Part shown: piece after piece, positions 55,013 to 57,332 of the stretch
Numbering within the stretch: the stretch's first letter is position 1
How the letters are laid out: every line of letters starts with the position of its first letter
Source of the DNA: Sulfoacidibacillus thermotolerans
Lineage (GTDB): Bacteria; Bacillota; Bacilli; Alicyclobacillales; SLC66
DNA: 64,000 nt
Reading direction: 5' to 3'
Assembly: GCF_003144315.1 (NCBI RefSeq)
Contig: NZ_MPDK01000002.1
Coordinates: 248,001-312,000 of the forward strand
Translations under genes and position numbers: made by a program
The notes under the pieces: generated by a model
What the model saw: only the letters and a program-made list of their open reading frames with translations
Told to the model about the DNA's origin: nothing
Databases searched by the model: none

Positions 55013-55456
55013 TTACAGTGTATGCAATTGCTCTTGTAAGATCATTAATGCACTTAAAATTAATTTTTGGTCTGCTTCTGATACTCGACTCAATACACGC
55101 CAAAGATAGTTTCTGCGCTCATCAAGCACACGGTCTATCAATGCCAAACCTTTTGCCAACACTCGCACACGAACGACACGCTTATCCTGCTCATCGCGCA
55201 CGCGTTCAACAAATCCACGCACTTCAATGCGGTCAACTAAATCTGTCGTTGTGCTATAGGCAAGTCCGAGTCGAGCACTCAATTCGCCAATTGTTAAATC
55301 CCTAAATTCATCGGCTAAAACCAGCGCGTCAAATTGGACTGGCGTCATCCCAAAATCCCCGAGGATCGTCCGCCCCTGCTTGCGTACGGCAGAAGATACA
55401 CTGCGCAGCAACATCTCTATTTTTTCAACGTCCTCGCTCATAATGTTTAACGACAC
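55013..55456 (-). CDS. MarR-family transcriptional regulator
   Basis: Winged-helix regulator of 147 residues with the MarR core: LTIGELSARLGLAYSTTTDLVDRIEVRGFVER is the recognition helix and wing region (about residues 54-85), followed by RDEQDKRVVRVRVLAKG. It may sense small ligands or oxidants. B. subtilis has a MarR gene (ysmB) beside racE, so this may be that orthologue. The GTG start has GGAGG 8 bases before it. Divergent from the ABC-F gene; whether it controls that gene is unknown. Confidence 0.9.
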   Translation of the reverse strand: MSLNIMSEDVEKIEMLLRSVSSAVRKQGRTILGDFGMTPVQFDALVLADEFRDLTIGELSARLGLAYSTTTDLVDRIEVRGFVERVRDEQDKRVVRVRVLAKGLALIDRVLDERRNYLWRVLSRVSEADQKLILSALMILQEQLHTL

Positions 55457-55485: not shown

Positions 55486-55513
55486 ATTGTACACTTTGTA
55501 AAGACAGCGTCAA
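55486..55513 (-). promoter_or_regulatory. Sigma A promoter of the marR-type gene
   Basis: On the minus strand TTGACG (55513-55508) and TACAAT (55491-55486) are 16 bases apart. The spacer and -10 region hold an imperfect palindrome TACA-AAG-TGTA (minus strand), a possible autoregulatory MarR site. Confidence 0.75.
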
Positions 55514-55560
55514 CAGATGACAACACGAACAAAGAGTTGTCTGTGTAAATCTGCACGTCT

Positions 55561-55589
55561 TTGCAGCTGAATCAGCCCCATGATATACT
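55561..55589 (+). promoter_or_regulatory. Sigma A promoter of the ABC-F leader
   Basis: TTGCAG (55561-55566) and TATACT (55584-55589) are 17 bases apart. The predicted start near 55596 leaves a 135-base untranslated leader before the ABC-F ATG, much longer than needed. Confidence 0.7.
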
Positions 55590-55625
55590 CACTCACATAA
55601 ACGAATTCCTATTATTCTAAATTGA

Positions 55626-55637
55626 GGAGTACTCCTG
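55626..55637. repeat. 12-bp perfect palindrome in the ABC-F leader
   Basis: AGGAGTACTCCT is a perfect 12-bp palindrome. Its left half contains the ribosome site (GAGGAG) of the first leader ORF. It might be a regulator site downstream of the transcription start, or only a by-product of the ribosome site. Confidence 0.5.
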
Positions 55638-55715
55638 GTGTGTAAAGGTTTAAACGGAGATGGCCTACATTTGTCTCCGCACTGTTGCTTGCTGGCCATC
55701 AGATCCTCAAAATGA
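55638..55715 (+). CDS. Leader peptide ORF upstream of ABC-F (25 residues)
   Basis: A GTG with GAGGAG 8 bases upstream opens a 25-codon frame that reads (M)CKGLNGDGLHLSPHCCLL and ends with a TGA at 55713-55715. A second frame, ATG at 55660 to TGA at 55723-55725 (MAYICLRTVACWPSD start), overlaps it and ends 5 bases before the ABC-F start. Either could be a regulatory leader peptide on which the ribosome stalls. The first has the better ribosome site, the second the more suggestive coupling distance. No match to a known leader is claimed. Confidence 0.5.
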   Translation: MCKGLNGDGLHLSPHCCLLAIRSSK

Positions 55716-55727
55716 AAGGTTCTGATG
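55655..55727 (+). promoter_or_regulatory. Mutually exclusive hairpins (candidate translational attenuator)
   Basis: Three stems can form. Stem A: CGGAGA (55655-55660) with TCTCCG (55674-55679). Stem B: GATGGCC (55659-55665) with GGCCATC (55694-55700). Stem C: CATCAGATCC (55697-55706) with GGTTCTGATG (55718-55727), one mismatch. Stem C includes the GG of the ABC-F ribosome site GAAAGG and lies 3 bases before its ATG. A and B share bases, as do B and C, so A plus C would be the closed state and B the open state, the arrangement used by inducible resistance genes. Confidence 0.6.
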
Positions 55728-55730
55728 TAG

Positions 55731-57332
55731 ATGAGTATTTTAGAAATCTCCAATCTATCTCATGGGTTTGGCGATCGAACTCTATTTAAGAATGTCAACA
55801 TTCATCTCTCAGCTCGTGAACACGTTGCGCTCATCGGACGAAACGGGGCTGGTAAATCCACCCTGTTTAATCTAATTACGGATCAAATCTCGCACGATCA
55901 AGGTCATATTCGATGGCAAAATGGCATAAAAATCGGCTTCTTAACGCAACACGCGAAATTATCTGATTTTCTGACGATCAACGACGCATTATTACACGCA
56001 TTTGACAGCATTCTCTCAAAAGAGCGCACATTGCAGGGAATTGCTACAAAGTTAGCAAATGCGACGGGCAAACAACTCGAGCGCTTACTTGAACAATATG
56101 CAAACCTTCAAGATGAATTAGAACGCGAAGGGATCTATGAAGTCAGCGCACGCATTCAAACGGTTGCAGATGGACTCGGCATCCTTGAACTTGGACTAGA
56201 CCATCCTGTCGCTCATTTGAGTGGCGGACAACGAACAAAAGTCTTATTAGCACAACTTTTATTGCAACAGTGTGACGTGCTTTTACTCGATGAACCGACA
56301 AATTTCTTGGATGTCAGTCACATCAATTGGTTAAGTAATTTTTTGAAACAATACGAGAAAGCCTTTCTTGTAATTTCACACGATGCACTTTTTTTAAATC
56401 AGATCGCCGATGTGATTTGGTCCTTGGAAAATACCGAACTTGTTCGCTACAGTGGGTCCTATTCTGCTTACCTCAGCTATGCAAGCGAAAAACAAACACA
56501 GCAAATTCAGGCTTATTCCAGACAGCAGCAAGAAATTAAGCGCATGGAAGACTTTATCGAAAAAAACATCGCCCGTGCTTCCACAACAAAACGAGCACAG
56601 AGTCGACGTAAAGCATTAGAAAAGATGGATCGGATTACAACACCTACAATTTTAGCACCACCCTCTTTTTCTTTTAAGGAGGTCCCAGCATCAGCAAAGA
56701 TCGCTCTCGAAGCGACGAATCTAATCATTGGTTACACGCATCCACTGCTCCCTGCACTCAACCTTCTGATTGAGCATAACAGTAAAATTGCCTTAACCGG
56801 TTGCAATGGAATCGGAAAATCTACGCTTTTGCGAACACTCCTAGGCGAACTTCCACCACTCAGTGGAGAGATCCACCATGACGAAAAGCTGAAAATTGGA
56901 TATTTTGCCCAAGAAGAATATGAAAAAAGCAAAGCAACACCGCTCGACCGTATTTGGCAATGTGTACCGGATTGGCCCAAAAAAGATGTCTTGCGTGTAC
57001 TTGCACGTTCTGGTTTAAAACATGAACATATGAATCAGCCAATCCACTCTCTAAGTGGAGGGGAACAGGCAAAAGTTAGATTATGTAAACTGACACTGCA
57101 ACCTGCAAACTTCTTGCTTTTTGACGAACCGACCAATCACCTAGACCAGCCCACCAAAGATGCCCTAAATACTGCGATGAAGAATTTTACTGGAACACTT
57201 ATTCTCGTTTCACACGAACCTGCTTTTTACAAGTCAATTGTTGATACCCTCATAGATTTAGAAACACTCTATGCAAACGGCAAAGAGACACAAATCATCG
57301 CGCGCCATTTTAAGAAAACAAAGCGTCACTAA
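55731..57332 (+). CDS. ABC-F family ribosome-associated ATPase
   Basis: Cytosolic protein with two ABC ATPase domains and no membrane part, of the ABC-F class which acts on the ribosome (translation factors or antibiotic resistance by target protection). Walker A motifs are GRNGAGKST (about residue 37) and GCNGIGKST (about 350), signatures LSGGQ and LSGGE, Walker B LLLDEPTNFLD and LLFDEPTNHLD. The interdomain linker (about residues 240-310) is rich in Gln, Arg and Lys, like housekeeping YfmM/YdiF types and also VmlR-like ones, so subclass is open. The long leader with small ORFs favours inducible control by a ribosome-targeting compound. Confidence 0.93.
   Translation: MSILEISNLSHGFGDRTLFKNVNIHLSAREHVALIGRNGAGKSTLFNLITDQISHDQGHIRWQNGIKIGFLTQHAKLSDFLTINDALLHAFDSILSKERTLQGIATKLANATGKQLERLLEQYANLQDELEREGIYEVSARIQTVADGLGILELGLDHPVAHLSGGQRTKVLLAQLLLQQCDVLLLDEPTNFLDVSHINWLSNFLKQYEKAFLVISHDALFLNQIADVIWSLENTELVRYSGSYSAYLSYASEKQTQQIQAYSRQQQEIKRMEDFIEKNIARASTTKRAQSRRKALEKMDRITTPTILAPPSFSFKEVPASAKIALEATNLIIGYTHPLLPALNLLIEHNSKIALTGCNGIGKSTLLRTLLGELPPLSGEIHHDEKLKIGYFAQEEYEKSKATPLDRIWQCVPDWPKKDVLRVLARSGLKHEHMNQPIHSLSGGEQAKVRLCKLTLQPANFLLFDEPTNHLDQPTKDALNTAMKNFTGTLILVSHEPAFYKSIVDTLIDLETLYANGKETQIIARHFKKTKRH

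Follow-up and report, generated by a model that had tools for sequence, protein, structure and literature searches.

In the ermCL-ermC system, the inducing stall places codon 9 of the leader peptide ErmCL in the P site of the ribosome (PMC13148051). ABC-F genes have leaders of their own: the leader ORFs of vmlR, cplR, vmlR2, and lsaA comprise only three to four codons (MIN, MR[I/M], MK[L/Q], and MAGN; PMC10201436), and msrD is preceded by the msrDL peptide MYLIFM (PMC10314930). Several known ABC-F leaders have intrinsic terminators (PMC9226507, PMC10201436, PMC10314930), and that of vmlR also has a hairpin that hides the ribosome site (PMC9226507).

Here, the leader of an ABC-F gene from Sulfoacidibacillus thermotolerans (draft genome G000, 2.87 Mb) was analyzed within a window of 64,000 nucleotides, the whole stretch of DNA that was studied. 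This leader is probably the shortened descendant of a leader-peptide attenuator that is specific to one clade and regulates translation of the ABC-F ATPase. Judging from the sequences, relatives carry the intact version and the window a rewired or decaying one. No paper describing a MarR/ABC-F gene pair with a leader was found.

The ABC-F gene and its leader in the window

The ABC-F gene and a marR gene are transcribed in opposite directions (Table 1), with cytochrome oxidase genes next on the other strand. The encoded protein has two ABC domains (two ABC_tran stretches) and the ABC-F linker (ABC_tran_Xtn), which aligns to that of YheS and contains no long insertion. Among curated family models, only the general NCBIfam model for ribosomal-protection-like ABC-F proteins was passed (398.8 against a cut-off of 380); the scores for the Vga, Lsa, Msr, Sal, OptrA, and CplR resistance subclasses were all far below their cut-offs (for example, Sal, 272 against 725, and Msr, 258 against 680). 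In a tree, seven proteins form one clade (support 100/98), and its sister is a large set of proteins from Bacilli that we take to be YfmM. On sequence grounds, the product is thus a YfmM-like ABC-F protein outside the recognized resistance subclasses. Both the ABC-F protein, whose branch (0.33 versus 0.14 for its sisters) is the longest in the genus, and the leader appear to have changed faster in the window.

A probable marR promoter (TTGACG-16-TACAAT) lies at window positions 55486-55513 on the minus strand. Within the spacer of this promoter is an imperfect inverted repeat (TACACTTTGTA-like) that is kept within the genus and is a candidate MarR operator, through which the regulator may control itself. 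An Rfam scan of the window returned one tRNA and nothing else.

Table 1. Features of the marR-ABC-F region, in window positions.
Feature	Position	Strand	Remarks
Divergent MarR-family regulator gene	55013..55456	-	Pfam MarR, 1.1e-13
ABC-F promoter, TTTGCA-18-TATACT	55560..55589	+	TTTGCA 55560-55565, 18 nt spacer, TATACT 55584-55589; TG ahead of -10 (TGaTATACT); aligned in L002 and L003, conserved in both same-genus genomes
Ribosome site GAGGAG of ORF1	55624..55629	+	duplex -8.1 kcal/mol; aligns with L002 leader-ORF ribosome site
12-bp palindrome AGGAGTACTCCT	55625..55636	.	spans junction of ~25-nt deletion relative to L002 (the first junction)
Block matching arm 1 / VLMVSEG codons of relatives	55629..55650	+	19/22 identical to L002
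ORF1, GTG start, 25 aa	55638..55715	+	TGA 55713-55715; frame of relatives' leader ORF; new start, early stop gone
Stem A hairpin	55655-55663/55671-55679	+	9 bp, 3 G-U; covers arm 2; window-specific substitute for relatives' arm 1-2 pairing
Stem B (ON state)	arm 2 55659-55665 / arm 3 55694-55700	+	7 bp, perfect
ORF2, ATG start, 21 aa	55660..55725	+	TGA 55723-55725, 5 bases short of ABC-F ATG 55731; not conserved
Stem C (OFF state)	arm 3 55697-55703 / arm 4 55721-55727	+	7 bp + 3 bp inside; surrounds ABC-F ribosome site
ABC-F ribosome site AAAGG	55715..55719	+	identical position in 6/6 leaders
ABC-F ATPase gene	55731..57332	+	533 aa; ATG 55731; clade-specific, sister to YfmM-like proteins

The promoter, the two small ORFs, and the three stems are all present as first described, and so is a leader of ~135 nt, a length that assumes a transcription start near 55596. 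Stems A and B are mutually exclusive, as are stems B and C. A triple of stems with the observed strengths and the same overlap appeared in 0 of 1,000 dinucleotide shuffles, the thresholds being the observed strengths themselves, chosen after the data had been seen. This bears out the first-pass description of neighboring stems that exclude each other, the last of them around the ABC-F ribosome site.

The overall folding energy of the window leader is unremarkable (z -0.88). The palindrome, which had been singled out earlier, is perfect and real, but such 12-bp palindromes occur at chance frequency (17 in the window against 15.6 expected), and comparison with L002 indicates that this one is a by-product of a deletion junction. 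A role as an operator or other regulatory element was rejected because of this frequency and this position.

The long leader form of related genomes

Beyond the window, close homologues of the ABC-F protein (56-66% identity) were confined to six genomes of the family. Five of them carry a longer leader together with the same divergent marR gene (G001 and G002 from the same genus; G008, G014, and G016 from another), and the MarR proteins share 64-78% identity; the sixth, G010, has neither. The divergent marR gene adjoins every leader-bearing copy and is absent upstream of the leaderless homologues that were checked. This linkage would suit a scheme in which the divergent MarR repressor exerts the main control, at transcription, leaving the leader merely to tune translation. 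We regard that scheme as rather unlikely: it leaves the conserved leader peptide and the covarying arms described below unexplained, and the ABC-F promoter is without a demonstrated operator.

Each of the five long leaders, which come from two genera, contains a leader ORF that is exactly 12 codons long and has a ribosome site of its own. With the first residue read as Met, the peptides are MCLLYVLMVSEG, MCQERVLMVSEG, MRQCVVLMVSVS, MRQFVVLMVSVS, and MCQRVVLMVSAS, in which VLMVS is invariant at codons 6-10 (V6 L7 M8 V9 S10). Ser10 is encoded by AGT in one genus and by TCG in the other, and its retention through this change points to selection on the leader peptide. Codons 7-9 are invariant at the DNA level too, for which pairing by arm 1 could be an alternative cause. 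The long form combines two features of a leader-peptide translational attenuator, a conserved leader ORF with a ribosome site and mutually exclusive pairings that would hide or free the ribosome site of the gene.

When the 5' halves of the leaders were compared genus against genus, the alignment was better than 1000/1000 shuffles in five of six comparisons. A covariance model of this 5' half (R1; 105 positions), built from the five relatives, matched each of its source loci once and gave no other match in 59 genomes of the order; across 300 genomes of the class, only the known loci were found. A search of genome contigs for homologues returned distant ones only. A two-gap DNA pattern of the arms, run family-wide, had gap limits too narrow to reach the other genus and matched just the two loci from the same genus. 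Among other YfmM-like homologues, no leader ORF combining a strong ribosome site with the VLMVS motif recurred, and the lack of such a leader in more distant ABC-F homologues counts against an attenuator.

Two further observations concern individual loci. In L004 and L005, the ABC-F frame stays open for ~50 codons upstream, across the leader; the same frame is interrupted by a TGA in L008, which makes a real N-terminal extension unlikely. The leader ORF of L002 contains GTACTCAT, the complement of ATGAGTAT at the start of the ABC-F gene (55629-55636 and 55731-55738 are the window counterparts). Pairing between the two might mask the start codon directly; in the window and the remaining genomes it is weaker.

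Switch arms and the shortened copy

Three arms follow the leader ORF: arm 2 has the core GATGG and arm 3 the core CCATC, and arm 4 (TCTGATG or a variant of it) lies beside the ribosome site AAAGG. Arm 3 has two alternative partners, arm 2 or the ribosome-site arm 4. Covariation was measured on a joined alignment of the arms from all six leaders. Pairing between arms 2 and 3 stands at 95.6%. Three of the pairs carry two-sided changes, some of them specific to the window, and one pair occurs as U-A, A-U, and C-G; both the covariation score and the pairing exceeded 500/500 shuffles and every slid control. Arms 3 and 4 are 100% paired in 6/6 leaders, with one-sided G-U changes at four pairs. These results, limited to about three independent lineages, indicate that both partners of arm 3 have been retained. 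Thus, stem B bears the compensatory changes that were looked for, and stem C pairs throughout but has changed on one side only.

An ordinary 5' leader with incidental small ORFs and stems would agree with the folding energy and palindrome frequency given above and with the fact that neither ORF1 nor ORF2 is conserved. Such a chance origin is highly improbable, being already contradicted by the covariation of arms 2 and 3 and by the leader ORF with its VLMVS motif conserved in relatives; the arm 3-4 pairing, the shuffle test, and the specificity of R1 argue against it as well.

Ribosome stalling was modeled by folding each leader with the ribosome footprint blocked out, so that the following values are predictions of single-strand folding models rather than measurements. 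In free RNA, arm 3-4 pairing is near 1.0 in five of the six sequences; L002 is predicted to be ON even with the ribosome absent. In L004 (0.99), L005 (0.43), and L008 (0.98), arm 2-3 pairing reaches its maximum when codon 9 occupies the P site. A stall at this codon is thus predicted to flip the switch in L004 and L008, and partly in L005; L002, already ON, and L003 gave no switching with a codon-9 stall.

From the sequences, their conservation, the covariation, and the deletions described below, the following mechanism can be proposed. In the ancestral form, represented by the five relatives, ribosomes would translate the 12-codon ORF. When no ribosome stalls, arms 1 (the VLMVS codons) and 2 would pair, as would arms 3 and 4, leaving the ABC-F ribosome site hidden. 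A ribosome stalling on the VLMVS codons would free arm 2 to capture arm 3, and the site would open.

Could the leader ORF instead govern transcription termination, in the manner of vmlR or msrD? Known ABC-F leaders work in this way (PMC9226507, PMC10314930), and the first hairpin of L004 and L005 (AAAAAGGG...CCCTTTTT) looks weakly terminator-like by eye. A simple consensus scan of the window, L003, and L005 leaders found no intrinsic terminator, the single L003 hit lying inside the gene, and the first hairpin is missing from the window. Transcription attenuation was rejected on the basis of these terminator-free leaders, and we consider it improbable.

In the window, the proposed translational switch would have been reshaped by two deletions. 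Joint MAFFT alignments misplaced the window leader, which was aligned instead by pairwise affine alignment; its 5' block matches L002 better than 2000/2000 shuffles. At the first junction (GAGGA|GTACTC), 25 nt are missing, including the leader start and early codons; at the second (GGTT|TAAAC, read by eye), the loss of ~32 nt removed the leader stop and the first hairpin. Because the other genus carries the long form, the short leader is the derived one. R1 does not match the window (<=0.1 bits). Accompanying these losses, the GTG start of ORF1 is the former codon 9 of the leader ORF, well spaced from the old ribosome site, and the ORF1 stop falls on the ABC-F ribosome site. Neither of the small ORFs named at first is the conserved leader ORF of the relatives, and neither is itself conserved: ORF1 overlaps, in the same frame, the 3' part of the conserved ORF, whose start and stop the deletions removed, and ORF2 has no counterpart. 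The proposed layout of translational attenuation holds for the exclusive stems, conserved with covariation, and for the leader ORF of the relatives, but not for the two ORFs that were named.

The window copy nonetheless retains the mutually exclusive pairings of stems A, B, and C, with compensatory changes in B: arms 2 and 3 gained two window-specific C-G pairs and lost two outer pairs. In terms of the model, arms 2, 3, and 4 were kept, and arm 1-2 pairing and the old leader start and stop were deleted; the new hairpin, stem A, would cover arm 2, and the GTG ORF would take over the old ribosome site. The window switch would then open only through a stall in the first ORF1 codons, or through ribosomes that translate ORF1 as far as its stop beside the ABC-F ribosome site. 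Modeled switching is weak: arm 2-3 pairing does not exceed 0.37, a value obtained with the P site on codon 3.

It is also quite possible that the window copy is a decayed attenuator, in which the deletions broke drug sensing and ORF1, with its stop on the ribosome site, couples translation constitutively to ABC-F. The missing leader start, first codons, stop, and first hairpin, the lack of any R1 match, and the long protein branch are all in keeping with decay. So is the passage of ORF1 through arms 2 and 3, a feature that counts against an attenuator and would favor constitutive coupled expression; in the folding model, ribosomes past codon 16 of ORF1 dissolve stem C. Decay alone accounts less readily for arms 2 and 3, which have changed on both sides yet still pair, for the new hairpin over arm 2, or for the ABC-F frame, which is intact at 533 codons with its ATPase motifs present. 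We read the window leader as a derived attenuator whose stems are conserved and which may still be inducible; an early-stall switch and constitutive coupling are both compatible with the evidence.

Comparison with known attenuators

If the attenuator reading is true, the ABC-F lineages under stalling-peptide control gain one that belongs to none of the named resistance subclasses. The relatives and the window would also form a before-and-after pair, a leader-peptide switch whose peptide was lost and whose stems were kept, which raises the question of whether early-codon sensing can replace sequence-specific sensing. A more far-reaching version, which we advance only tentatively and consider doubtful, is that an ErmCL-like leader peptide, stalling at VLMV/S (codons 9/10), controls a housekeeping-type YfmM-like protein paired with MarR, so that stalled ribosomes turn on an ABC-F protein that belongs to no known resistance subclass; the window lineage would have been rewired by deletion, with a new hairpin in place of the lost arm and an early-stall ORF in place of the sequence-specific peptide.

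At the protein level, the nearest relatives are the YfmM-like ABC-F proteins of Bacilli, with 45-51% identity and a sister position in the tree; the window clade is separate from them, confined to one family, and has the divergent marR gene and leader in five members and the window. Like vmlR, cplR, vmlR2, and lsaA, the present genes have a short upstream ORF before an ABC-F gene and alternative hairpins, although vmlR and cplR use an intrinsic terminator and none was found in the leaders scanned here. The msrDL-msrD pair likewise places a hydrophobic leader peptide before an ABC-F gene, but acts by transcriptional attenuation with a terminator and differs in its peptide and ABC-F subclass. 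With ermCL-ermC, the leaders share a leader ORF, mutually exclusive stems, and an OFF state in which the ribosome site of the gene is hidden. The VLMV residues span codons 6-9, followed by Ser at codon 10, and in three genomes modeled switching is greatest at codon 9; any residue-by-residue resemblance to ErmCL is tentative. The differences are that an ABC-F protein rather than a methyltransferase is controlled, that the peptide has 12 codons, and that the window copy is without the peptide. By anatomy, the long-form geometry, with its expected codon-9 stall and hidden ribosome site, is closest to that of ermCL-ermC.
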